Shown here: one piece after another, positions 455 to 12,061 of the stretch
Layout: each line of letters begins with the position of its first letter
Numbering within the stretch: position 1 is the stretch's first letter
DNA from: Chroococcidiopsidaceae cyanobacterium CP_BM_RX_35
Lineage (GTDB): Bacteria > Cyanobacteriota > Cyanobacteriia > Cyanobacteriales > Chroococcidiopsidaceae
Length of the DNA stretch: 12,136 bases
Reading direction: 5' to 3'
NCBI GenBank assembly: GCA_019242465.1
Contig: JAFAVL010000304.1
Coordinates: 1 to 12,136, forward strand
The notes under the pieces: generated by a model
Told to the model about the DNA's origin: nothing
Databases searched by the model: none
Seen by the model: the letters and a program-made list of their open reading frames with translations, nothing else
Position numbers and translations under genes: made by a program

Positions 455-575
455 CCAAGATCCATTGTCATCTAGCAAAACATTGAACCAGATGAATAAC
501 TCCGCCATTCCTCTCGGCGTTGGCGGAATAGCTGAAGCTGAAGCTGAAGGAGAAAACAAATGGCAGATCTTATAA
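447..575 (+). CDS. Possible 42-aa ORF coupled to the end of iscB
   Basis: A GTG at 447 overlaps the last 8 bases of iscB and is preceded by AGAGGTGAT at fair ribosome-binding distance. The frame runs 42 codons, past the parM start (560), and ends with TAA at 573-575. The product would contain a Gly-rich stretch (IPLGVGGI) followed by AEAEAEGE, which comes from a three-fold GCTGAA repeat. I do not recognise it. It could instead be untranslated leader: the reading frame contains a 7-bp hairpin and low-complexity DNA. The overlap arrangement at both ends hints at translational coupling, but that is inference. An ATG at 492 would give a shorter version. Confidence 0.22.
   Translation: MHNQDPLSSSKTLNQMNNSAIPLGVGGIAEAEAEGENKWQIL
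501..527 (+). other. Hairpin in the iscB-parM spacer
   Basis: TCCGCCA (501-507) and TGGCGGA (521-527) form a perfect 7-bp, G+C-rich stem around a 13-nt loop. No T-run follows, so it does not look like an intrinsic terminator. It sits 33 bases before the parM-like start. It may be a leader structure or part of the 3' boundary of the iscB-bearing element, because IS200/605-type ends are hairpins. Confidence 0.45.
531..548 (+). repeat. Three tandem copies of GCTGAA
   Basis: GCTGAA is repeated exactly three times and runs directly into AAGGAG, the ribosome-binding site of the downstream actin-like gene (547-552, 7 bases before the ATG at 560). It is a simple-sequence repeat that could vary in copy number by slippage. 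In the overlapping small frame it encodes Ala-Glu repeats. Confidence 0.6.
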
Positions 576-1708
576 TCGTCGTAGATCCAGGAAGGTCATT
601 ATCGAAAATCTTTTATTCTTACCGTGGACAGAAGCCCAAGCTATTGTTGATGGAGCCGGAAGTCATAGAGATGGATGTTAATATCCTAAGTGAGGAATAC
701 GAGAATAAGGTCGCTGGTGCTCACCCGGAAGAGTGTGCTTGGGTGCAAGCTGAAAACAATGCTTGGGCAGTAGGCTCTTTTGCTAAAGATAGCTTTCGTG
801 CCTGTAAGAACCTAAAGGAACGCAAGTCCGTTGACTCTCTTCCCAAGGTCTTAGCTGCACTAGGCATAATCATGGAACGAGAGGAGATTCCGGCATCTAA
901 TCTCAGCATCTGTCTTGGCTTGTTGCTACCCAAGGAAGAATGGGAAGCCCGTAAAGGCTTTGAGGTGAGGGTTAGAGAGGCGATCGCGCATTTTCGATTT
1001 CGACATCAAAGTCTATCGCTCAGATTAGAGGAATTTAATTGCTCTCCTGAAGGAGCAGGGCTAATTTACGAGCGCCGTCGCCAACTGGGTCAGGAATTCA
1101 AATCCCTGAATATCGGAGTGGTAATTGCTGGCTATCAGCATTGTTCTTACCTGACAATGAAACATGGGGTATTTGGACCTTGCGACACGATCGATTTAGG
1201 GTTTGCTAGACTCGTCGAACTTGTTCGGGATAGCACATCAGGGTTAGCGATCGAGTCGCTAACACCTGCCATTTGCCAAGCGGGATTGAAGGTAGACTGC
1301 GAGAAACTAGCGTACCTGTTTGATGAGGATGACCCTAAGCGCATCCATGAGTTGCCCTTGCTCGTCAAGGCGATTGAAAATGCTCAAAAACGCTATTGGG
1401 CTGGTCTACGCAGCTGGCTGAAGAATAGCTTTCCCCATCGGATGATGGATGAAATTGTGTTATCAGGAGGAACTGTAGGGTACTTCAAACCCTGGTTCAA
1501 GCAACTTTATCCCTCAGCTAGTTATTTAGAACAGCTAGAAAAGACCATTAAGCTTACGTTTACTCGGTCGTATCCTTTTAGGCTAAGTGATGGTAATAGC
1601 TTTTTTAACTACCTCAATGACCAGAATAACAAACGAGCTAAGAAGCTGGTGAGTTTAGGTGTATCGGCTAGAGGACCAAACTCCACAGTTGTGTTGGAAA
1701 GTAGGTAG
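560..1708 (+). CDS. ParM/StbA-like actin-family plasmid segregation ATPase
   Basis: Predicted bacterial actin of the ParM/StbA type, which polymerises with ATP to push sister plasmids apart. The protein is 382 aa, near the size expected for ParM-like actins (about 320-400 aa). The N-terminal VVDPGRSLSKIFY (residues 7-19) is the phosphate-1 loop with Asp9. LSICLGLLLPKEEW (115-128) and SPEGAGLIYE (162-171) occupy the positions of the conserved central actin-like strands. NIGVVIAGYQHCSYLTM (184-200) is a degenerate phosphate-2 loop in which the usual DxGxGT is replaced by AGYQHCS. IVLSGGTVGYFKP (299-311) is the adenosine-binding motif. The ATG has AAGGAG 7 bases upstream. It is the first gene of a six-gene run. 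The divergent phosphate-2 loop is odd and could change hydrolysis. No parR homologue is obvious next door, so the adaptor must be one of the unknown neighbours or lie elsewhere. Confidence 0.8.
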   Translation: MADLIIVVDPGRSLSKIFYSYRGQKPKLLLMEPEVIEMDVNILSEEYENKVAGAHPEECAWVQAENNAWAVGSFAKDSFRACKNLKERKSVDSLPKVLAALGIIMEREEIPASNLSICLGLLLPKEEWEARKGFEVRVREAIAHFRFRHQSLSLRLEEFNCSPEGAGLIYERRRQLGQEFKSLNIGVVIAGYQHCSYLTMKHGVFGPCDTIDLGFARLVELVRDSTSGLAIESLTPAICQAGLKVDCEKLAYLFDEDDPKRIHELPLLVKAIENAQKRYWAGLRSWLKNSFPHRMMDEIVLSGGTVGYFKPWFKQLYPSASYLEQLEKTIKLTFTRSYPFRLSDGNSFFNYLNDQNNKRAKKLVSLGVSARGPNSTVVLESR

Positions 1709-1754
1709 TTGAAATACAAGGTTGCATAAGGGCGAAAGTAATAAGCAGAGAAAT

Positions 1755-2516
1755 ATGCAAACAGTTGATTTAGTGCGAAGTTGTCGTAAGAATTTTGTGA
1801 AAACAGCCGCTAAACCGTTGGTGTTCAAGGTCTTAGAGAGTGTAAGCCAAAACCACCTTCATTTCTACCTGATTTGGTATTGGAGATCGAACCGGACTGT
1901 AGCGCGACCTCGGCAAATGCTGTTTGCAGCTTTATCTGCCTACTGGATGCCCTTTGCCTTACAGGAGTGTGGTGAATTCAGTCCAGCTCAGTTGAGGGAG
2001 TCGGCAGCGATCGCAATCCGCCAGTTGCAAGAACAAGTCCACACAGTCAAAATGCACTTTCTGATTGGAACTGATGAATCGGTACAGAAAGCTACTGTAT
2101 CAGCTCCAGCTGTTATCCTGCCTACAAACGAGGGAGGTGAAAGTGAATTCAGAGCGGTTCATACAGTGCAGCCCAACCACCTCTACTCTTACCTGGTCAG
2201 GTATTGGAGGTCAAACCGGACAGTAATGGAACCCCGGCAGATGCTGTTTTCAGCCTTATCTGCTTTTTGGTTGCCCTTCGCCTTACACAGCAGTGGTCGA
2301 TTTAGTGTTGATGAATTGAGAGAATATGCGGCGATCGCCACTCAACAGATGGAAGACCAAATCGAGCTGCTCAAAACTCACTTTTATCCAATGGAAGTTA
2401 TTTCTTGTTCCAGTCCGCCTTCTAAAGTTGAACTTAATGATGCGTTGGAGCAGGAAGAGCTTGATGACGATTCGGATTTATTTAACTCTGAACCAGAAGA
2501 AAACGAAAACCTATGA
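1755..2516 (+). CDS. Unknown protein with an internal duplicated ~72-aa domain
   Basis: I do not recognise the family. From the ATG at 1755 the product is 253 aa; a TTG at 1722 would add 11 residues but is a weaker start. The protein contains two copies of one helical domain. The first begins NHLHFYLIWYWRSNRTVARP and the second NHLYSYLVRYWRSNRTVMEP. Both continue PRQMLF(A/S)ALSA(Y/F)W(M/L)PFAL, an acidic helix and a Gln-rich helix ending K-HF. The copies are 324 bases (108 codons) apart and remain clearly similar at the DNA level. The C-terminal 35 residues are very acidic (EQEELDDDSDLF). It lies 46 bases after the actin-like gene and 15 before the next, so it is probably co-transcribed. A ParM adaptor or DNA-binding partner is a reasonable guess from position alone; the Trp/Arg-rich YWRSNRT motif could bind nucleic acid. 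Function unknown. Confidence 0.7.
   Translation: MQTVDLVRSCRKNFVKTAAKPLVFKVLESVSQNHLHFYLIWYWRSNRTVARPRQMLFAALSAYWMPFALQECGEFSPAQLRESAAIAIRQLQEQVHTVKMHFLIGTDESVQKATVSAPAVILPTNEGGESEFRAVHTVQPNHLYSYLVRYWRSNRTVMEPRQMLFSALSAFWLPFALHSSGRFSVDELREYAAIATQQMEDQIELLKTHFYPMEVISCSSPPSKVELNDALEQEELDDDSDLFNSEPEENENL
1851..2390 (+). repeat. Intragenic duplication, two copies 324 bp apart
   Basis: Copy one spans about 1851-2066 and copy two about 2175-2390. Both begin AACCACCT and keep long near-identical runs, for example TATTGGAG(A/G)TC(G/A)AACCGGAC, and both encode the YWRSNRTV...PRQMLF core. The copies are separated by a ~108-bp unique linker encoding a Ser/Thr/Ala-rich stretch. Each copy has a HIP1 or near-HIP1 GCGATCGC in the same place (2007 and 2331), so the octamer was either duplicated with the domain or gained in both. 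Confidence 0.75.
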
Positions 2517-2520
2517 GGAG
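2515..2520 (+). promoter_or_regulatory. Ribosome-binding site GAGGAG for the 2532 gene
   Basis: GAGGAG overlaps the TGA stop of the upstream gene (2514-2516) and lies 11 bases before the ATG at 2532. This supports that start and translational coupling of the two genes. Confidence 0.6.
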
Positions 2521-2531
2521 TTAGCTTCTGT

Positions 2532-2984
2532 ATGGACTTAGATGAATTTCAATTTGATGGTGGCTTTATTTCGTATAAGTTTGAACCGTTACCTTGGTCT
2601 TACACATTTACTGATGAAGCTCGTGCTAAATGGTATGACAGCGTGCAGTATTCTAAGAATTACAAGAAGGACATAGATTATCTGCGCGAACAATATCCCG
2701 AAGTTGCTCACTGGAATGATATAGTTTTGGTTGAGGCTTGGCTAGAATTCTGCACTGATGTTTACTACGCAAGTTTCCTAACTCCTAGTCGGGATTACTT
2801 GTTTTTAGCTTGGCTGTATGACATCTGCGATAAATATAAACAGAATAGTAACAACAAAGAAACGCTAACTGATTTCAATAACCCAAAACTTATCAAAGCT
2901 GCTAACCAACTATGGGCAATGTCTGGTCAAGAACTCAAAGATGAATCCGACAAAGTTAGCTGTGAAACCGAGGAATTTAAGTAG
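2532..2984 (+). CDS. Hypothetical protein, 150 aa, actin-operon gene
   Basis: No family recognised. The product is acidic and rich in aromatic residues. It starts MDLDEFQFDGGFISYKFEPL, and the middle contains WLEFCTDVYYASFLTPSRDYLFLAWLYD in pieces that look like amphipathic helices rather than membrane spans. The C-terminus is charged and disordered-looking (SDKVSCETEEFK). No signal peptide, zinc motif or nucleotide-binding motif is visible. It follows its upstream neighbour by 15 bases with GAGGAG at the stop/start junction, and its TAG lies 6 bases before the next ATG. It is therefore almost certainly translated as part of the same message as the actin-like gene. Function unknown. Confidence 0.68.
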   Translation: MDLDEFQFDGGFISYKFEPLPWSYTFTDEARAKWYDSVQYSKNYKKDIDYLREQYPEVAHWNDIVLVEAWLEFCTDVYYASFLTPSRDYLFLAWLYDICDKYKQNSNNKETLTDFNNPKLIKAANQLWAMSGQELKDESDKVSCETEEFK

Positions 2985-2990
2985 GATAAA

Positions 2991-3395
2991 ATGCTTTATC
3001 AAAGCGCTACAATTTGGGAATTTGATTGGAAAGGTCTGCCTGGTTGGGGGATCGAGGTTCGATATGGCAAGTTCAATTCTATTGAGCGAGCTGCAAAATT
3101 TGGTGCTTCTGTTCGCGGACTTCACCACCTCTTAGGACAAAATCATCTCTTACTCTGTGACGGAACTGAGCAAGTTCATATTATTAATAAAGTGGATATT
3201 ACCTTACGTAAGTTAAGGGAAGAATCTTTTGGAAAGTTAACGACAAATTCTTTAGAAGATCTCACAATGATCGAGTTAGATTTTGTTGAAATTTCAGAAT
3301 TACCGAAATCTTTTCATTCACTAGTTTATGGAATTGCTGATGAAGATGGACGAAGGCTTGAGGTTGACGGTTATTTGTATTTTCTAAGTCATTAA
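2991..3395 (+). CDS. Hypothetical protein, 134 aa, actin-operon gene
   Basis: No family recognised. The compact product begins MLYQSATIWEFDWKGLPGWG, with an alternating hydrophobic/charged pattern suggesting a beta-rich fold. A central section reads HHLLGQNHLLLCDGTEQVHI, followed by a helix (ITLRKLREESFGKL) and an acidic end (IADEDGRRLEVDGYLYFL). There is no transmembrane segment or signal peptide. The ATG has AGGA four bases upstream within the end of the previous gene (stop at 2982-2984), so translation is probably coupled. An overlapping opposite-strand frame has no comparable ribosome-binding site or operon fit. Base use is A+T-richer than the flanking genes, as in the 2532 gene. Function unknown. 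Confidence 0.68.
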   Translation: MLYQSATIWEFDWKGLPGWGIEVRYGKFNSIERAAKFGASVRGLHHLLGQNHLLLCDGTEQVHIINKVDITLRKLREESFGKLTTNSLEDLTMIELDFVEISELPKSFHSLVYGIADEDGRRLEVDGYLYFLSH

Positions 3396-3401
3396 ACGCA
3401 T

Positions 3402-3407
3402 AAGGAG
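3402..3407 (+). promoter_or_regulatory. Ribosome-binding site AAGGAG selecting the ATG at 3414
   Basis: AAGGAG directly abuts an ATG at 3408, leaving no spacer, but lies 6 bases before a second in-frame ATG at 3414. The second ATG is therefore the better start, giving MNFTELQEKF as the N-terminus. Confidence 0.65.
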
Positions 3408-3413
3408 ATGCCA

Positions 3414-4004
3414 ATGAACTTCACTGAACTACAAGAAAAATTCCACATTTCTCTAGAAGTCACCAAAAAAACTTTAGAAGCTTGTGGTTTAAGCTCGAAT
3501 CAAGCTGAATACACAGAAGAGGAAGTCGAGCGATTTAGCATAGCAAGACAGAGGATGGCTGATGGTTTATGCCGTTCCTACAATGATGTCAGGCGTTACT
3601 TTGCCGAAGTTGGTGTTCGACCAAGGACAACCGAGCCAGCCACGGTACATGATTTTCAAATTGATATGCAGGCGGCGGCTGAAAGTGCCGAATCTCTAGC
3701 TCAAGATTTTGAACAGGTCGTAGCAATAATGGCTTACGAACGGATTCAACAGATGCACGATAGTGGGGAGATGCACGCAGCAGCTCTCCAACTGATCCAA
3801 GAGCGAGGACTAGGTCCCTCAAAATTCTCATTTTTGGATAAGGCAGAAGAGTACCTCAAAAGCAGACGGCAATCGCGAACGCAACTTGTTATAGACTCAT
3901 CAGACTTAAAACAATTACCCGAATCGACAGAGCCCTCCCTCGAGAATCAGACCGAAGACATCGAACAGGTCCAACATGTGCAAGAGGATGTAAGCAATGC
4001 ATGA
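3414..4004 (+). CDS. Putative DNA-binding protein with MerR/IF2-N-like N-terminus and module shared with the next gene
   Basis: The 196-aa product starts with MNFTELQEKFHISLEVTKKT, a helix-turn-helix-like segment. It is followed by YTEEEVERFSIARQRMADG, a layout resembling small winged-helix (MerR- or IF2-N-like) domains, and then SYNDVRRYFAEVGVRPR. Residues 81-132 form a helical module, FQIDMQAAAESAESLAQDFE onward to IQQMHDSGEMHAAALQLIQERG; 29 of its 52 positions are identical in the next protein. The last 40 residues are acidic and probably disordered. The gene ends within the start of the 3997 gene (8-base overlap). A DNA-contacting adaptor for the actin filament or an operon regulator would fit, but this is inference from the N-terminal pattern and position; the fold is not certain. 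Confidence 0.68.
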   Translation: MNFTELQEKFHISLEVTKKTLEACGLSSNQAEYTEEEVERFSIARQRMADGLCRSYNDVRRYFAEVGVRPRTTEPATVHDFQIDMQAAAESAESLAQDFEQVVAIMAYERIQQMHDSGEMHAAALQLIQERGLGPSKFSFLDKAEEYLKSRRQSRTQLVIDSSDLKQLPESTEPSLENQTEDIEQVQHVQEDVSNA

Positions 4005-4233
4005 TACGAATCTTCAGCACAATTTAGCTGGGCAGGGCGACCAGCAGAAGCTCACGGCAGCAACTGGAGCCAAAGCTTTTGAACTGGATATAGAGGCAGT
4101 GACTGAGACTGCTAGAGTCTTGGCACAACAGTACAGGGAAGTTGTGGCAGTAATGACCTGTGAATGTATTCAACAGATGGTTGATAGTGGGCAGATGCAC
4201 GCGGCTTACCTTCAGTTACTGCGGCAGCGGGGG
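3654..4233 (+). repeat. Duplicated 156-bp module in adjacent genes
   Basis: Copies at 3654-3809 and 4078-4233 (424 bp apart) encode the shared 52-residue helical module. Long DNA matches remain, including CAACAGATG, GATAGTGGG and AGATGCACGC. Because 424 is not a multiple of three the copies lie in different frames. The arrangement is best read as duplication of a gene segment followed by divergence of the ends. Confidence 0.7.
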
Positions 4234-4674
4234 GGGATACGTTCTCCCAAAGTTCCCACTGCTGAAGAAAATACTACTAAGACTTTTACACTTCCTGGGC
4301 CTGATGAACTGAGCCAGGTGACTAGAGCCTTACTGGAAGAGCAGCTCAAAACCTTAATAGCTTCAGATGAAAATCATCTCAGAATTGAGAGAGAACGAGC
4401 AGCTCTGAAAGAGGCAGAGGCAAAAAAACGGCATCAGCGACGGATGGAATTGGTAATGGCAATACCTGGGGCGATCGCTCAAAGAATGAATACCTGGGTA
4501 ATTATGGTGCTTTATGGGGGGGCAATGCTAATTACCGGAATTAATCTGCCTCCAGGTGTCCTCTGCGCCCATCGGGGAGACTTCTGCTATGTGTTCCGCT
4601 TTCAGGAAACCAAAATGGCAATGGACGACCCAGTAGTTCAGCATCAGCCCAAGCGCCTACAGCAGCAGAAATAA
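3997..4674 (+). CDS. Coiled-coil protein with one membrane segment and the shared module
   Basis: The 225-aa product has no recognised family. Residues 28-79 are the module shared with the preceding protein (DSGQMHAAYLQLLRQRGG at its end). Residues about 104-150 form a charged helix likely to be a coiled coil (LLEEQLKTLIASDENHLRIE, then ERAALKEAEAKKRHQRR). Residues about 165-182 (NTWVIMVLYGGAMLITGI) form one hydrophobic membrane-spanning helix, followed by a short tail with two cysteines and a Gln-rich end. The ATG overlaps the previous stop by 8 bases and has AAGAGG seven bases upstream, so it is translationally coupled. A membrane anchor partnered through the common module with the putative DNA-binding protein is an attractive idea for a segregation or localisation system, but unproven. 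Confidence 0.7.
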   Translation: MHDTNLQHNLAGQGDQQKLTAATGAKAFELDIEAVTETARVLAQQYREVVAVMTCECIQQMVDSGQMHAAYLQLLRQRGGIRSPKVPTAEENTTKTFTLPGPDELSQVTRALLEEQLKTLIASDENHLRIERERAALKEAEAKKRHQRRMELVMAIPGAIAQRMNTWVIMVLYGGAMLITGINLPPGVLCAHRGDFCYVFRFQETKMAMDDPVVQHQPKRLQQQK

Positions 4675-4710: not shown

Positions 4711-7206
4711 TCATAATTGGATGAAATCCTCAATTTTCTGACCCTTCTTGCCTTTCGGAATGTTGTGTCCCTCACTCAATTCGTGTTTGGCATTATGGTC
4801 AGCGATCGCCAAATGATGCTCCTCAAAGTAGCGGTTAATGGCTGGACGATTGGAACCACAGAGCCGAGCGACAGCCGAGGCAGTGATTGCCCATTTCTGG
4901 TCCTTTTCAGTGGCAGTGTAATTGTTGTAATTCATGATTGCCTGCACTGCCCGCTCAATTCGTTCCTCAGCTGGACCAGAAACCTTCCTTGACTGTGATT
5001 TTGGTGGCTCTGTTTCTAGAGCTGAGCTAGACGATTGAGTAGGTTGATTGGGTGGCAGTAGGGAGTGAGTAGTAGCCGCCAAGGGAGTAACCCCCTCCTC
5101 CGCAATCTCCTTGGGAATAGATGCTGACGGCTGTTGGGGTAGTTGCACAACCTGTTCAATTGCGAGTCCACGACGACCCTTACCAGTATTGTGTCGTTCT
5201 GTCAGGTTGTGCTTAGCATTGTGCTGGGCAATCTCCTGAGCGTGAGTAGTTAAATAGCGCTTCACGGCATCACGGTTGCTACCGCTAAGACGTTGGACTG
5301 AGGTTTGATTGATTGCCCACCTCTCGTCGTAGGTCCGCTCAGTTGAGTCATTAAACTCCATAAGGGCTTGCACCCAGCGATGAATTTTTTCCTCAGCACT
5401 ACCCTTCTTACGCACTAAGGGAGAACGGACGTTGCCTTGACCAACAACTGGCTGTGGCGATGTGGGAACTGCTGATTGCGGTATGTTGACGGCTGGTTGA
5501 AAGCGAGGAGGTGCTTGGGGTGTGGTAGCCGGCTGAGGTTGGGGCTGGATGGATTGTGATGGTTGTGCTTTGGTGACTACCAACTCAACCAGAACTTGTG
5601 AGAGCTGTTGAGTCAAACAGGTGACAGCTTTGGTCAATTCAGTAATCTGCCACCAAGCGGTGTTGAAGGCAGGTGCAGTGAAGGGAGCAATTGCTTGAGC
5701 GGTAGGAATTAAAGCTGGCGATTGAGCAACCGGGTCAGTGGTAGATTCAGGTCCAGTTTTTGCCTCAGCAGGGGAAACTGACTCTGAGCTGGAAGCCGGG
5801 GGAGCTGATTCTGAGGTGTCAACAGATGGTTCTGGTTGTGATGGTGGAGAAGTTGCTAGGGCGGCTAATTCCCTGACCTTGGTAACTATTGCCTCTGGTT
5901 CGGGAGAGACTCCTAACTCAGAAGCTAGTTCGACAACTAACTCAGCACTGGAGAGTGCAAAAGAGAGGGCTGTTTGCTGATTTGGAGCTGCAATTTGTGT
6001 AGCTAAAGTTATTAGGCGAGGGCGATCGCTCTTGTTAGCCCTGACTCTGATATCTGCGACATGAGCTTTGGCTGGAGTAGAGGCACTGAAGTTGTCAATT
6101 GCAGTCGGGCAATTAGAATTAGCTACAACTTGAACTGAAAGTGGTGAGACCTTACTTGTTTGACTGGATTTTTGAGTTGACATAACAGGAGTTAAAACAT
6201 TCAGACCAGATTCTGTTTCTCTAACCTCGATTTTTTTGGCAGAGTGACGGAAGATTTCTAGCACTTCGACTCCCGGTTGATTGAGTTTTATGCCCTGCCG
6301 TCCATCGATATTGCCTTGACCATCACTGATTTTGTAGTCAAAGTAGTTACGGGTAGAGGCGTAGGAGCGACGTAATTTAGCGGTAGGGGCTTCTAAGATC
6401 TGGTAATGTCCTTGGATAGCTGCCATGTACACAATATCTGCTACTCGCACTGGACAGTAGTAGAAAACAGCAATCCGAGCATATACAGCCCGAAATAGGT
6501 GAGTGTACAGGTTGTCTTTGCCTTCTCGCTGCGGTACCAAATTAGTGAAGTGGCGATCGCAAGCCTTAGCGACGGGACTGCCATACTTCTGATTGATTTC
6601 TCGGTTGCTTAAATCATGACAGCGTACTTCCCGGCGTAGAAAAGCTAGAGACTTAATGACTGTCTGCGCCGGTGCGAGGGTGGGGATTTCAAATTGCAGG
6701 AGTACGTCTTCTCCTTTCCGCTTGAGTTGACCAGTAAAAGTTACAGAATAATTTGACTTGGGCTCAAACCGAGCTGTTGCCAGTACCTCACTGCTACGAC
6801 GTCCGGTACAAACCACGATTCCGGCTGCTACTTCCGCCCAATCCCGACTGTCCAACAGCTCGGCAGCTTTAGCGACGATAGCATCAGGATGGTCCAGCAA
6901 TTGTTGGTTCTCATTGCGTTGCTCGACAGCATCTTCAGAAGGATTGTTCATCTCCCGCCACTGCTCGGTGGAAAAGTTCATTGATTCCAGAGCTATGTGA
7001 TGCGGGTCAATAGCTTTGATCGCATTGCGGGTGTCAGTCATCAGCGTCCGCTGTTGATTCAGAGTAGTCAAATCGCGCTCAGCCCACTTACCCCTAAGCC
7101 AATCCGCCCATTTTCGTGCTTGAGCGCGATCGGCTGGGGTGTCTTTAAGGGAAGCGATCGCAGGTATGTAGTTCTCTTCTAGCAGTTGAGCCAACCATTT
7201 TTTCAT
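4711..7206 (-). CDS. Protelomerase-like hairpin telomere resolvase with duplicated C-terminal domain
   Basis: Protelomerases are tyrosine-recombinase relatives that cut replicated palindromic telomeres and reseal them as covalently closed hairpins on linear replicons. Numbering here is from an upstream TTG at 7236 (841 aa). The ATG at 7206 (831 aa, AGGA 9 bases upstream) is my preferred start; the TTG also has AGG upstream. Recombinase signatures: VVCTGRRSSEVL (141-152, Arg146), FTGQLKRKGE (167-176, Lys172/174), IPTL (184-187), LFRAVYARI (247-255, Arg249), IQGHYQ (274-279, His277) and NYFDYKI (297-303, Tyr298 the likeliest nucleophile). Residues ~345-610 are a Pro/Gln/Ser/Ala-rich linker. Two ~88-residue repeats follow (612-699 and 755-840), sharing AEE-I-R-VQA-M and GSNR, HNAKH and GKG-K/R motifs; these are probably DNA-binding. 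The gene converges on the actin operon 36 bases away. Family assignment is strong by motifs. Alternative: an atypical integrase-type recombinase. Confidence 0.82.
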   Translation of the reverse strand: MKKWLAQLLEENYIPAIASLKDTPADRAQARKWADWLRGKWAERDLTTLNQQRTLMTDTRNAIKAIDPHHIALESMNFSTEQWREMNNPSEDAVEQRNENQQLLDHPDAIVAKAAELLDSRDWAEVAAGIVVCTGRRSSEVLATARFEPKSNYSVTFTGQLKRKGEDVLLQFEIPTLAPAQTVIKSLAFLRREVRCHDLSNREINQKYGSPVAKACDRHFTNLVPQREGKDNLYTHLFRAVYARIAVFYYCPVRVADIVYMAAIQGHYQILEAPTAKLRRSYASTRNYFDYKISDGQGNIDGRQGIKLNQPGVEVLEIFRHSAKKIEVRETESGLNVLTPVMSTQKSSQTSKVSPLSVQVVANSNCPTAIDNFSASTPAKAHVADIRVRANKSDRPRLITLATQIAAPNQQTALSFALSSAELVVELASELGVSPEPEAIVTKVRELAALATSPPSQPEPSVDTSESAPPASSSESVSPAEAKTGPESTTDPVAQSPALIPTAQAIAPFTAPAFNTAWWQITELTKAVTCLTQQLSQVLVELVVTKAQPSQSIQPQPQPATTPQAPPRFQPAVNIPQSAVPTSPQPVVGQGNVRSPLVRKKGSAEEKIHRWVQALMEFNDSTERTYDERWAINQTSVQRLSGSNRDAVKRYLTTHAQEIAQHNAKHNLTERHNTGKGRRGLAIEQVVQLPQQPSASIPKEIAEEGVTPLAATTHSLLPPNQPTQSSSSALETEPPKSQSRKVSGPAEERIERAVQAIMNYNNYTATEKDQKWAITASAVARLCGSNRPAINRYFEEHHLAIADHNAKHELSEGHNIPKGKKGQKIEDFIQL

Positions 7207-7318
7207 CAGGGCTTTTCCTGCACGCTTACTCTCCAAATTTAACCTGTATGAGTATGATCAGCAACTATATGTACAGTCAAAGTTTTGCAGAAGGTGTAGG
7301 CAAAAAGAACAAGGAGCA

Positions 7319-7327
7319 GGAGAGGAG
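7319..7327 (+). promoter_or_regulatory. Ribosome-binding site favouring the ATG at 7329
   Basis: AGGAGAGGAG-type purine-rich sequence lies immediately before the ATG at 7329. The upstream in-frame ATG at 7248 has no convincing ribosome-binding site and would leave only a 12-41 base spacer from the divergent gene. The downstream start is therefore preferred. Confidence 0.55.
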
Positions 7328-7328
7328 C

Positions 7329-8393
7329 ATGGAAAGCGCGACGCAATGGATCTATCATCTAGTAGAAAGATATCCCCCTGTACAGCTAATGACTAGCCAA
7401 TTGAAATGCCCTGCATGCCGTCAAGAGCTGTGCTTTCCTGAGCCTAGTGAGTGCCAGGAAGACGTTTTGGAAGCAGTCTGTAACAGATGCCGATATAAGT
7501 ACGGGCTAGTACATGCAAAAGTTAGAGCGTTTTACTCCCATGCCGAGGCTGTATATTCCAGTAGATACAGCAAACGTCCTAGACAGCGGCGGTTCTACCA
7601 ACTGCGGCTGGTGCAAGCAGACGAGACACTAATGCCTTTGCAGTTCTGGACAGAAGGTCCAGAAGAAAAACTCTCTGCTCTACCAGGCGATGAATTTCTA
7701 CTCTTGTACTTAATCCAGGGTCAGAAACCGAAGGAGCTAATTTGGGCACAGAATGCTACTACTAGGAGGAGCTGTTTGCTTACAGCACCAGGAGCTAGAG
7801 CTAGGCGAGCAGGCTTAGGCACTGCAGCGGTCACCTTTGCTAGTGGAATTTTGATAGCAACCTTCAACCATTTCCCAACGAATCAGATATTTTGGGCAAC
7901 AGAGATTCCGATCTCTGTCGGTGCTGGTCTGTTCATAACCAAACGACGCGAACCTAAAATTAGGGATGAAAATGAGTTGAAGCGGCTCAATTCAGAGCAG
8001 CAACTGCTACAGCAGAAATACGATCTTGAACAAAGACAGCAGGCATTGCGCCAAGAGCTAGAAGCCAATCGGCGGATGAGCGAGCGTCTTGCAGGATTAC
8101 GGAGCAAAATGAATGCTGAACCAGAGCAGTATACTACTCGAATAGAAACTGTTAGCAAGGGCATCACTCTACTGGAGCAACAAGTTGAGTTAGCACAAAA
8201 CTTACTGGCTGGATATGCACAGATAATCAATATTTTGGCAATCGAATATGAAACATCAAGGCTAGCAGAACAGCTCCCAAATGACATCACAAATCAGGTA
8301 TTAAGAAAATTAGAGGAATTGAAGGTAATTGAGACCAAGAAGGAGGAGTTATCTTTACTGACAAATCCACAGAAACTACTAAATATGTATTAA
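7329..8393 (+). CDS. Zinc-ribbon, two-helix membrane, coiled-coil protein of unknown function
   Basis: I do not recognise the family. From the ATG at 7329 the product is 354 aa (381 from 7248). Two CxxC knuckles, CPAC (27-30) and CNRC (51-54), form a zinc ribbon near the N-terminus. A beta-rich stretch follows (about 88-150). Next come two hydrophobic segments, ~162-179 (AGLGTAAVTFASGILIAT) and ~187-204, separated by a short loop and ending in positively charged KRREPK. The C-terminal 140 residues are Gln/Glu/Leu-rich coiled coil (QQLLQQKYDLEQRQQALRQE, then a second helix with LEQQVELAQNLL). By the positive-inside rule both ends may be cytoplasmic. The gene is divergent from the protelomerase gene with about 120 bases between preferred starts, so shared regulation is possible. 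Scaffolding or membrane tethering would fit; function unknown. Confidence 0.7.
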   Translation: MESATQWIYHLVERYPPVQLMTSQLKCPACRQELCFPEPSECQEDVLEAVCNRCRYKYGLVHAKVRAFYSHAEAVYSSRYSKRPRQRRFYQLRLVQADETLMPLQFWTEGPEEKLSALPGDEFLLLYLIQGQKPKELIWAQNATTRRSCLLTAPGARARRAGLGTAAVTFASGILIATFNHFPTNQIFWATEIPISVGAGLFITKRREPKIRDENELKRLNSEQQLLQQKYDLEQRQQALRQELEANRRMSERLAGLRSKMNAEPEQYTTRIETVSKGITLLEQQVELAQNLLAGYAQIINILAIEYETSRLAEQLPNDITNQVLRKLEELKVIETKKEELSLLTNPQKLLNMY

Positions 8394-9267: not shown

Positions 9268-10026
9268 CCCTTGAAGGTTTAGACTAAGCTCTGAACCACA
9301 CAGCATGGGATTAAGGAATGAAGTTACGCCGACGTAGCCAACAGATATTTGAGGCAATCAAGGAAGGGGGCAAGCGTTCTATCAGGAAAATCGCCGAGGC
9401 TACGGGCATAGCTAAAAGTAGTGTCCACCGCCATCAACAAGCGATGAGACGGCGTAATCAGTATTCCGAGTCAGAATTATGGGAAACAGCAGTTGGGGGG
9501 GAATGGCTGCGGTTACTAGTATTGGGAACGATTTACATTTTTGGTATCAAGTGCGGCATCGGAGTTGAGACACTGTCAGAGTTCTTCTATCTGTTACAGT
9601 TGCCCATGCAGGTAGGAGTTTCGCCGAGTGCCCTACACAAGCTAGAAGCTGAAGTCAGGGAAAGGATTTTACAATACCAACAGGAGCAGCAATCGCTCTT
9701 AGGGCAAAGTCAGACAGCAATTGAGATTTGTGCGGCGGCGGATGAAACGGCTTTTGAGCAAGATGTGTTGGTGTTAATGGACTTGAAGAGTGGGTACATC
9801 CTTGTTGAAGAACAGGTGGAGAACCGACAATACGATACCTGGCTGGACAAAGCCCAAACAGCTTTAACCCAGGTAGGAGTGCGAGTCAGGTCATTGGTTA
9901 GTGATCCACCCGCTCTCATCAAGCTAGCTTTAGAAGGATTTAAGTGTCCTAGTGTTGCCGATCTGTTTCATCCACTTTGGGACTTGAGTAAGTCTGTTGG
10001 AGCCGCTCTGAGTCGGCAATTAGGGG

Positions 10027-10057
10027 TAGTGTTACGATCGCTGTCACTAAGTGCCAA
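10027..10057 (+). repeat. Left terminal inverted repeat of the MITE
   Basis: Begins TAGTGTTACGATCGC and continues TGTCACTAAGTGCCAA. It pairs with 10258-10288 at 26 of 31 positions. Confidence 0.8.
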
Positions 10058-10286
10058 GGCTCGTTATGAAGTTCCGAATAGGTTTTTGGAATTGGAACTT
10101 TGCCCTTTTTTCCTCTGTTTTATTGCCTGAAAGCTACTTTAACCCGCCCCAAACTGGGAAAATGTTCCGACTCCAGTAGAAATCGGAAATTATGAAAAAT
10201 TTTCAATAGATGCAAATTTCAGGTTGAAAGCTTGTAACAGCAAGGCTTTCAGCTTGGTTGGCACTTCCTGACAGCTACCGTAACAT
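10029..10286 (+). mobile_element. MITE of 258 bp with TA target duplication (IS630/Tc1-mariner type)
   Basis: The element interrupts the transposase gene. It is flanked by TA on both sides (10027-10028 and 10287-10288) and bounded by imperfect inverted repeats of 31 bp including the TA, matching at 26 of 31 positions. Both repeats contain TGTTACG, GCTGTCA and AAGTGCCAA when read inward. It has no coding capacity. An inner hairpin pairs TGAAAGC with GCTTTCA near 10225-10251. Deleting the element with one TA restores the host reading frame exactly, which fixes the boundaries. A TA duplication is the hallmark of the IS630/Tc1-mariner superfamily, so a related full transposase elsewhere in the genome probably moved it. 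Confidence 0.8.
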
Positions 10287-10288
10287 TA
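10258..10288 (-). repeat. Right terminal inverted repeat of the MITE
   Basis: Read on the complementary strand it begins TAATGTTACGGTAGC and continues TGTCAGGAAGTGCCAA. The five differences from the left copy are spread out, so the element is not freshly inserted or its ends are naturally imperfect. Confidence 0.8.
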
Positions 10289-10949
10289 GGCCAATTAAAT
10301 CAAGCGAATCAGAAGCGGACGCAGGCGCAACAGAAGCTAGCACAACTGACAGCTTTAGCTCAAGAGACAACAGCTCAACAACAGTTGGTGGAGCAACTAC
10401 AAGCTCACCTGGAATTTGTGCAATCGGGACAACGCAACTACCATCGACTGCGGCAGCAACTGACATTGACTGTGCATCCCTTCGCCTTGACCGACGGTAG
10501 CTTCAAAACCACAACCGAGGTGCAAGCTCAGTTAGAACAATTGCTACTCAAGTTGGAGACTCTCCAGCACAGGCAGCAACTGAAGGCTGACTCGGTATTG
10601 AAAAAATTTCAACAGCAAATTCCCGCTTTAGCAGTTGGAGTCAATAGTTGGTGGCAGTCGGTACAATACTCCCTCTCACTGGAAAACTTGGACGCATCTT
10701 GCAGCAACTGGCTACTAGGTCAACTGCTGCCAACTGTCTATTGGCAACATCAGTTCGCTAAGACCAAATCCCGCAGTTTGAGGCGAATCTACCGACAAGC
10801 GCATCGCCGGGCTCATCAGGTCCTGCTCCATCATCCCTTCACCGCTACCCTGGAAGATGGGGAGTTGCAACATTGGCAAGAGTGGGCTAAACGCATGGTG
10901 ACTCAATTCCATCGTGCTTCCTCTGCCGTAGAGGGTCGTAATGGCTATC

Positions 10950-11114
10950 TGTAGCGACCCGAAATTATAAACGCACGGACCCGAAATCATCGCGTTTTTG
11001 AGACCACATTAACTGAGAATAAGCAGGTGGTTGAGACCAGATTAAGTGAGAATCAAACCAGATTAAATGACACCAGACCGAAATCATAAATTTCAGACCG
11101 CATTAATTGAGAAT
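10950..11114 (+). mobile_element. Tn7/CAST-like transposon terminus with seven TnsB-type repeats
   Basis: Starts TGTAGCGACCCGAAATTATA. A GACC(C/A/G)-A-ATTA/ATCA motif recurs at 10956, 10978, 11002, 11035, 11056 (AACC variant), 11076 and 11096, spaced 20-33 bases. Several copies extend to TTGAGACCA(C/G)ATTAA-TGAGAAT. A 5' TGT followed by several phased ~20-bp transposase sites is the architecture of Tn7-like ends; the arrangement resembles ends of cyanobacterial type V-K CASTs, though that comparison is from memory. The terminus cuts the transposase gene and creates its TAG stop. If it makes the usual 5-bp duplication, the target was CTATC (10945-10949). The opposite end is not in the window. 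No tnsA/B/C/tniQ or cas12k is visible. Confidence 0.65.
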
Positions 11115-11166: not shown

Positions 11167-11935
11167 TTAGGCATCTTTACGCGCTAAAACAGCCGATGGT
11201 GCAAAACTACCGAAAGTGACTGCCTTTAAGACGGTCTCTCGGACAGCATTGTTATGAAGTTGCACATCTTCTACACCACGCAGCCGTAAATATTTCGCAT
11301 ATTCAGCTTGATTGATAATATCTGCAAGCACAATCACCCCACCAGGTTTTAGAACTCGGACGATTTCATTTAATGCTTTTTGACGATCAGCCTCTGCTTC
11401 AAGATTATGCACCGCCCAATTTGAAGTGACGACATCGAAGTGGCTGTCTGGAAAAGGTAACTTACGCATATCGGCTGTTCTGACCTCAATGCGATCGGCG
11501 ACACCTTCAATCTGTGCATTTGTTTCTGTTGCTGAAGGCTCGTTGTTTGCTTGATCTTGTTGTTGCCATAAATCAATTCCGATGGCTTTACCAGAGTTGA
11601 GCCGCTTTGCTGCACCGATCAGCATTAAGCCACGCCCACAACCCACATCCAAAACCAGTTCCTCACCTGACCATTGAACGAGGTTGAGGAGCTTCTCTGC
11701 CTCTTTTAATTTCTCGACTTTACTGAAATAGAGCATGAAGCAACCCAAACCCAGCAAATAGAATGCTGCAACGCCCGAAAGCACGCTAATGGCTATTTTC
11801 AGTGTTTGCCCAAATATCGACGTGAATAGAGCCAGAACAAAAATAGCGAATGCTGCTGTGCCAGCGATAAAGAAGAAGCGAACGAGATCCGGTGCATCAA
11901 TAGCCGTATTGAGGACGCTGCATATTGCTACTCAT
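11167..11935 (-). pseudogene. Membrane-anchored class I SAM-dependent methyltransferase, frameshifted near the N-terminus
   Basis: The intact frame (11167-11784) encodes VLDVGCGRGLMLIGAAKRL, the SAM-binding motif I, followed by AIGIDLW (acidic residue of motif II), TADMRKLPFPD, DVVTSNWAVHNL and EIVRVLKPGGVIVLADI, all classic class I methyltransferase motifs. The nearest start in that frame is a GTG at 11784 with no ribosome-binding site. Upstream the same frame stays open and reads IDAPDLVRFFFIAGTAAFAI and further membrane helices, but has no start codon. One base out of frame lies MSSNMQRPQYG (ATG at 11935 or 11923), the N-terminus expected for this family, joining at 11902-11905 if one base is removed. 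The reconstructed protein is ~255 aa with N-terminal membrane helices. It is either a pseudogene or a sequencing error. It lies between two transposon ends as probable cargo; substrate unknown. Confidence 0.75.
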
Positions 11936-11960
11936 GATTAATGTATTATTGAACCCTAAC

Positions 11961-12025
11961 TGTAACGACCCGAAATTATAAACACATTGACCTGAAATCA
12001 TTGCGGTTGTGAGACCACATTAACT
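11961..12025 (+). mobile_element. Second Tn7/CAST-like terminus, same orientation
   Basis: Starts TGTAACGACCCGAAATTATA and matches the first terminus at 57 of 65 positions. Transposase-site-like motifs lie at 11967, 11989 and 12013 with the same 22- and 24-base spacing. Similarity stops after ATTAACT, and the distal repeats of the first end are not obvious here. The element interior should extend rightward beyond the window. A 5-bp duplication would be CTAAC (11956-11960). It lies 25 bases upstream of the methyltransferase ATG, so it has probably separated that gene from its promoter. Confidence 0.63.
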
Positions 12026-12061
12026 AATAAGGAAACGTGTAGCTAAAACTAATTAAGTGGC

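Follow-up and report, generated by a model that had tools for sequence, protein, structure and literature searches.

Among described hairpin telomere resolvases (protelomerases), the Agrobacterium enzyme TelA (PDB 4e0p, 4dwp) has an established reaction pathway (PMC3558466), and the introduction of the same paper mentions hairpin telomeres in cyanobacteria. Linear replicons are considered uncommon among cyanobacteria. Plasmids pNPM8 to pNPM10 of Nostoc sp. N6, with terminal inverted repeats (TIRs) and covalently closed hairpins inferred from reads, were documented in a paper that lists two linear replicons besides its own three and whose main text uses neither the word protelomerase nor resolvase (PMC5987646). 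A 2025 paper described linear plasmids of Rhizobiaceae that combine a protelomerase gene with hairpin ends and parM/stbA (PMC13293297). We analyzed a 12,136-nt stretch of a Chroococcidiopsidaceae cyanobacterium (contig JAFAVL010000304.1), referred to as the window, in which an earlier note had proposed a protelomerase gene, naming N15-like phages, Borrelia, and Agrobacterium as the sources of established members. That list is incomplete, as it omits cyanobacterial records already named protelomerase and the Nostoc N6 hairpin plasmids; because of the three published precedents above, the window's enzyme is not the first of its kind. In searches of one open-access library, we found no paper linking cyanobacterial linear replicons to an enzyme or their hairpin plasmids to a protelomerase. 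Our analysis points to an active hairpin telomere resolvase, belonging to a linear replicon system of cyanobacteria, as the probable product of the window's gene.

The open reading frame (ORF) at 4711-7236 on the minus strand encodes 841 aa from a TTG at 7236 and contains all motifs listed in the earlier note (TGRRSSEVL, GQLKRKGE, LFRAVYARI, GHYQ, and NYFDY). The likelier start is the ATG at 7206 (Met11), which would give 831 aa: this is where the consensus of relatives opens (MxKWL), and P0001, the nearest relative, has the same length; residue numbers follow the 841-aa ORF throughout. Pfam family PF16684 (ResT-TelK_cat) matched the protein at 6.4e-37 (127.3 bits against a cut-off of 27), the NCBIfam TelA model matched at 4.6e-14 (52 bits, under its strict cut-off of 800), and phmmer searches against PDB returned TelA at 5e-7, TelK at 5e-5, and ResT at 0.045. 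The PF16684, NCBIfam TelA, and PDB TelA matches rule out a chance resemblance. In its predicted fold, the protein also has an N-terminal helical bundle of the kind that clamps DNA together with the catalytic domain. Thus, profile matches, active site, predicted fold, and family strongly support that the gene at 4711-7206 encodes a protelomerase, as the earlier note had claimed.

The active-site set of this enzyme type (R, K, Y/K/H, R, H, and Y) is present as R147, K172, H246, R249, H277, and Y298, in agreement with an alignment to TelN of N15, and each residue is kept in 121 of 121 proteins, comprising the window's enzyme and the best 120 of 290 homologs. Where the window's enzyme has His246, TelA has Tyr363 and TelN has a lysine. 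The spacing of His277 and Tyr298, which had been singled out as unusual, is indeed long, at 21 residues relative to 9 in TelN and 11 in TelA (H394 to Y405; PMC3558466). Since H277 and Y298 are invariant in the 121 proteins, we regard this gap as a trait of the close subfamily. Tyr298 aligns with the tyrosine of the TelN motif LHYKQF, which we take to be the TelN nucleophile. Beyond the part aligned with TelA, the window's enzyme continues into a long linker and two C-terminal modules. Three short-form resolvases (on pANACY.06, pNsp_f, and the UHCC 0870 plasmid) have Asp at the expected catalytic His277, and their replicons still show inverted repeats or palindromes.

Proteins of Chondrocystis NIES-4102 plasmids 2 and 3 and of Leptolyngbya boryana pLBX share 47-48% identity (pLBY, 40%) with residues ~12-330 of the window's enzyme, and protein P0183 of the linear chromosome of Crocosphaera subtropica (Cyanothece) ATCC 51142, a member of a sister subclade, shares 37% over residues 14-329. 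P0183 is a candidate enzyme for that linear chromosome. By tblastn, we detected protelomerase-type genes on many cyanobacterial plasmids, with some records already bearing the protelomerase name, and pNPM8 and pNPM9 of Nostoc sp. N6 carry genes of this family. Of 386 genomes sampled from the phylum, only 14 had PF16684 above its cut-off. On one 474-kb plasmid of Gloeothece verrucosa Cy782202, we observed eight PF16684 matches, some of which represent a second partial copy in-frame.

Replicon ends were compared by scoring either an inverted repeat of at least 60 bp starting at most 300 bp from both ends or a palindrome of at least 40 bp at 90% identity at most 20 bp from an end. Such ends were found in 18 of 38 replicons with PF16684 and in 0 of 23 without it (Fisher p = 2.6e-5), under limits that were fixed after a first, looser survey and with rows that are non-independent, as several plasmids come from one strain. 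The controls were 5 named plasmids and 18 contigs of 8 genomes, 6 of them chromosome-size; AP018304, chosen as a control, carries PF16684 and was moved to the PF16684 set before the test. The comparison gave 12/23 versus 0/5 for named plasmids alone (p = 0.04) and 18/44 (p = 1.1e-4) when we included six further contigs found by self-comparison to have no terminal repeats (G001:C162, G405:C79, G006:C11, G216:C47, G417:C45, and G417:C73). Outside the 38 were also contigs G028 and G586:C72, with internal palindromes (in G586:C72 across a run of N), and other PF16684 contigs such as G037 and G297.

Individual replicons illustrate this association. Chondrocystis NIES-4102 plasmids 2, 3, and 5 have the gene and are labelled linear, and plasmids 1 and 4 are without it and labelled circular. 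In plasmid 2, a perfect 8,629-bp TIR is accompanied by 189-bp palindromes at both tips, the pattern that an assembler produces on reading round a hairpin; plasmid 3 bears a palindrome of 93 bp at one end. Although labelled circular, Fischerella plasmids 4, 6, and 7 carry TIRs (2,832, 2,213, and 1,491 bp, respectively, at 100% identity). At 99.9% identity, the TIR of the resolvase-bearing contig G479:C2 (774,507 bp) spans ~29 kb or more. These findings link PF16684 proteins to hairpin-type ends in cyanobacteria and make PF16684 a marker for linear replicons in existing assemblies. Separately, the last 12.4 kb of Nostoc C052 plasmid pC052_H, labelled linear, form one palindrome (99.9%), an apparent hairpin read-through, and its two resolvase copies are probably an artefact of that read-through.

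TATC-W-GATA, with a single central base, forms the centre of the palindromes in G028 and in Chondrocystis plasmids 2 and 3, and the right end of contig G399 stops at ...AGTATTATC, with no such core at its left end. In a FastTree phylogeny of 54 catalytic regions, the enzymes of these four replicons grouped with the window's enzyme and ATCC 51142 P0183 among 31 tips (support 0.889); the window's own 19-tip branch is weak (0.318), and its nearer groups have support of 0.903 and 0.952. Outside the 31-tip group, Nostoc C052 and G079, whose enzymes lie in another clade than the window's, have the centre GTTAATTTAAATTAAC, in agreement with the Nostoc N6 end sequence AAATTAACRGAC (PMC5987646), and GGTTAGAT stands at both the start and the end of the records for Fischerella plasmids 4 and 7. 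The core thus seems to vary with the clade of the enzyme. We predict a target centred on TATC-W-GATA for the window's wider clade, and this is the best available prediction for the window. This core is testable in vitro.

Two genomes, each assembled as one contig, are candidates for linear main chromosomes. G028 (4,681,111 bp, starting near dnaA) contains a palindrome centred at 2,113,190 with a single central base and arms free of mismatches for 3,079 bp, and each arm has an identical gene for an 876-aa resolvase starting 307 bp from the centre. From its sequence, G028 looks like a linear main chromosome with 3-kb TIRs that was assembled as a circle. G399 (5,458,034 bp) has diverged inverted repeats near both ends and a resolvase gene ~8 kb from the end that stops at ...TATTATC, and it fails the strict end comparison. 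Related genes reside on linear plasmids of several cyanobacteria and seemingly on two linear chromosomes. We lean, by a modest measure, toward a widespread cyanobacterial telomere system that includes the window's enzyme, has TATC-W-GATA as the common tip in much of the clade, and serves to maintain not only linear plasmids but, in some lineages, also linear main chromosomes. If so, G028 and G399 would be megabase cyanobacterial chromosomes with hairpin ends, and the linearity of G028 would have been overlooked because its assembly closed the contig into a circle. Searches of one open-access library yielded no report of a linear cyanobacterial main chromosome. Residues 359-525 of the G028 resolvase form a second, degenerate PF16684 copy.

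By analogy with the steps established for TelA (PMC3558466), bidirectional replication of a linear hairpin-ended replicon would leave daughters joined at palindromic telomere junctions. A dimer of the window's resolvase would bind the palindrome, and Tyr298, assisted by R147, K172, H246, R249, and H277, would cut both strands a few bases apart, after which each overhang would be folded back and resealed as a hairpin.

Several observations weigh against this reading, in addition to the late fixing of the end-test limits and the non-independence of its rows. No terminal repeat was found by the end test in 20 of the 38 PF16684 replicons (W05, W06, W07, W11, W12, W14, W15, W17, W19, W20, and W23; contigs G427C2, G536C1, G606C2, G389C9, G519C2, G461C3, G281C1, G136C3, and G399C1). 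Among these, W05, W06, W07, and W11 have internal palindromes or inverted repeats and G399 has its diverged end repeats, all uncounted by the test; controls W24 and W27 also bear internal palindromes, of 49 and 45 bp. A plain stem-loop could also account for one counted match, the 45-bp palindrome of G509C11; this palindrome opens the contig with a different centre, although the contig's enzyme lies in the 31-tip group. The TATC-W-GATA core itself rests on three palindromes and one half site, and no palindrome with this core was seen at the ends read of other members of the group (pLBX, pLBY, NIES-3755, BG0011, G389, G427, G489, G536, and G606). The core is also absent from the window, which is expected if the telomeres sit at the contig ends. 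No long palindrome was detected in the window either; palindromes of the kind that the earlier note had expected as the resolved target were found in relatives. Finally, the large contigs G536:C1 and G037:C1 (4.5 and 2.7 Mb) have no palindrome in the 15-18 kb around their homologs, and Synechococcus elongatus, among 14 control genomes, has a PF16684 match that is not on its plasmid pANL. Because of these large-contig homologs and the S. elongatus match, carrying the gene is not in itself proof of a linear replicon, and the resolvase may act in trans. The linear, hairpin-ended replicon proposed earlier is supported at the level of the family by its replicon ends, whereas the linearity of the window's own replicon is inferred.

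A genuine resolvase encoded on a circular replicon or chromosome could serve a linear replicon elsewhere in the cell, as exemplified by the protelomerase gene on the circular chromosome of Agrobacterium biovar 1 (PMC13293297) and by Borrelia resT on circular cp26 (PMC4379921), and the homologs on the 4.5- and 2.7-Mb contigs fit such an arrangement. We consider it unlikely for the window, as nearly half of the tested replicons with the family (18/38) themselves bear terminal repeats or palindromes; the plasmid-type partition genes of the window fit linear and circular replicons alike. It is less probable still that the gene belongs to an N15-like phage-plasmid instead of a plasmid proper. Protelomerases are known from temperate phages, and three PHROG families match the resolvase (5272 at residues 57-277, 26709 at residues 4-306, and 34828 at the C-terminal module), but no phage structural gene was recognised by Pfam or NCBIfam in the window ORFs tested, and PHROG searches of seven window ORFs gave only chance-level matches, including tail tape measure (E 0.1) and head (E 0.26) at the coiled-coil ORF 7248-8393. 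Furthermore, the tblastn matches from named phages are remote, covering 8-28% of the resolvase at 23-42% identity, and two scans of viral contigs, which used a few short patterns, confirmed no relative. That the protein is an ordinary tyrosine recombinase or integrase, or has the resolvase fold without resolving telomeres, is hardly tenable: none of its four Pfam matches at E up to 1 is an integrase family, TelA, TelK, and ResT rank far above integrases, its active site is complete and does not vary among close relatives, and the family is associated with hairpin-type ends. We favor an active telomere resolvase of a linear replicon system, carried plausibly, judging from these 12 kb, by a plasmid rather than a phage, as the earlier note held.

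The architecture of the window's enzyme differs from that of most relatives in its C-terminal part (Table 1). Among 240 homologs listed, 229 have one copy of the helical module, as do the Chondrocystis plasmid 2 and 3, pLBX, and pLBY proteins, whereas 9 have none and the duplication seen in the window's enzyme recurs only in its two closest homologs, P0001 and P0002. In five plasmids (W02, W04, W06, W07, and W18), a short resolvase of ~336-353 aa is followed by the module in the next gene downstream, judged by position alone for W18. This arrangement, fused in most listed homologs, adjoining in five plasmids, and doubled in the window's lineage, suggests that module and resolvase act jointly, and the module probably binds subtelomeric DNA. 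Foldseek returned no PDB match for it at E up to 0.001, a result compatible with kinship to the C-terminal domain of TelK from phiKO2.

Table 1. Coordinates of the protelomerase gene, its domains, and the putative partition cluster in the window
Feature	Position	Strand	Remarks
ParM/StbA-like actin-type partition protein	560..1708	+	NCBIfam, PHROG, tblastn
Downstream ORFs of putative partition cluster	1722-2516, 2532-2984, 3408-4004, 3997-4674	+	Within 1722..4674
Hairpin telomere resolvase (protelomerase) coding sequence	4711..7206	-	Probably 831 aa, ATG 7206
N-terminal helical-bundle DNA-clamp region, residues 11-110	6907..7206	-	
ResT/TelK catalytic domain, residues 117-279	6400..6888	-	PF16684 match; R147, K172, H246, R249, H277
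Tyr298 codon, predicted nucleophile	6343..6345	-	Invariant 121/121; aligned with N15 TelN LHYKQF tyrosine
Poorly conserved linker, residues 331-611	5404..6246	-	Pro/Ser/Thr/Gln-rich; relatives' consensus mostly unconserved
C-terminal ~88-aa helical module copy 1, residues 612-699	5140..5403	-	
C-terminal ~88-aa helical module copy 2, residues 754-841	4714..4977	-	51% identical to copy 1

As had been noted, the resolvase gene converges on putative plasmid-segregation genes, a plus-strand cluster that opens with an actin-like ParM/StbA gene of the type found on low-copy plasmids. Its product matched NCBIfam FcmB at 2.7e-9 (under that model's cut-off) and a PHROG partition protein at 3.7e-4, with up to 39% identity by tblastn to ParM/StbA of cyanobacterial plasmids (best 20 of 118 records). 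All named organisms among these 20 listed relatives and the listed resolvase homologs are cyanobacteria, which points to a cyanobacterial source for the window. The four downstream ORFs had no family match above cut-off; repeat D3 is common to the genes at 3408 and 3997, and internal duplications are present at 1851-2060/2175-2384 (71%) and 3717-3781/4141-4205 (78%).

At the left end of the window, a plus-strand ORF at 2-454 (150 aa) runs off the sequence; neither Pfam nor NCBIfam matched it at E up to 0.01, and by eye it may correspond to the C-terminal part of an IscB-type nuclease. On the other side of the resolvase gene, a broken transposase-like gene at 9318-10954 (plus strand) has an IclR-type helix-turn-helix at its start, a weak match to an IS256 variant, and DUF6399 at 10385-10954. 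Two 75-bp direct repeats (10945-11019 and 11956-12030, 85% identical) with the motif GACCCGAAATTATAAAC lie on either side of a methyltransferase gene at 11167-11784 on the minus strand and are possibly the ends of a mobile element.
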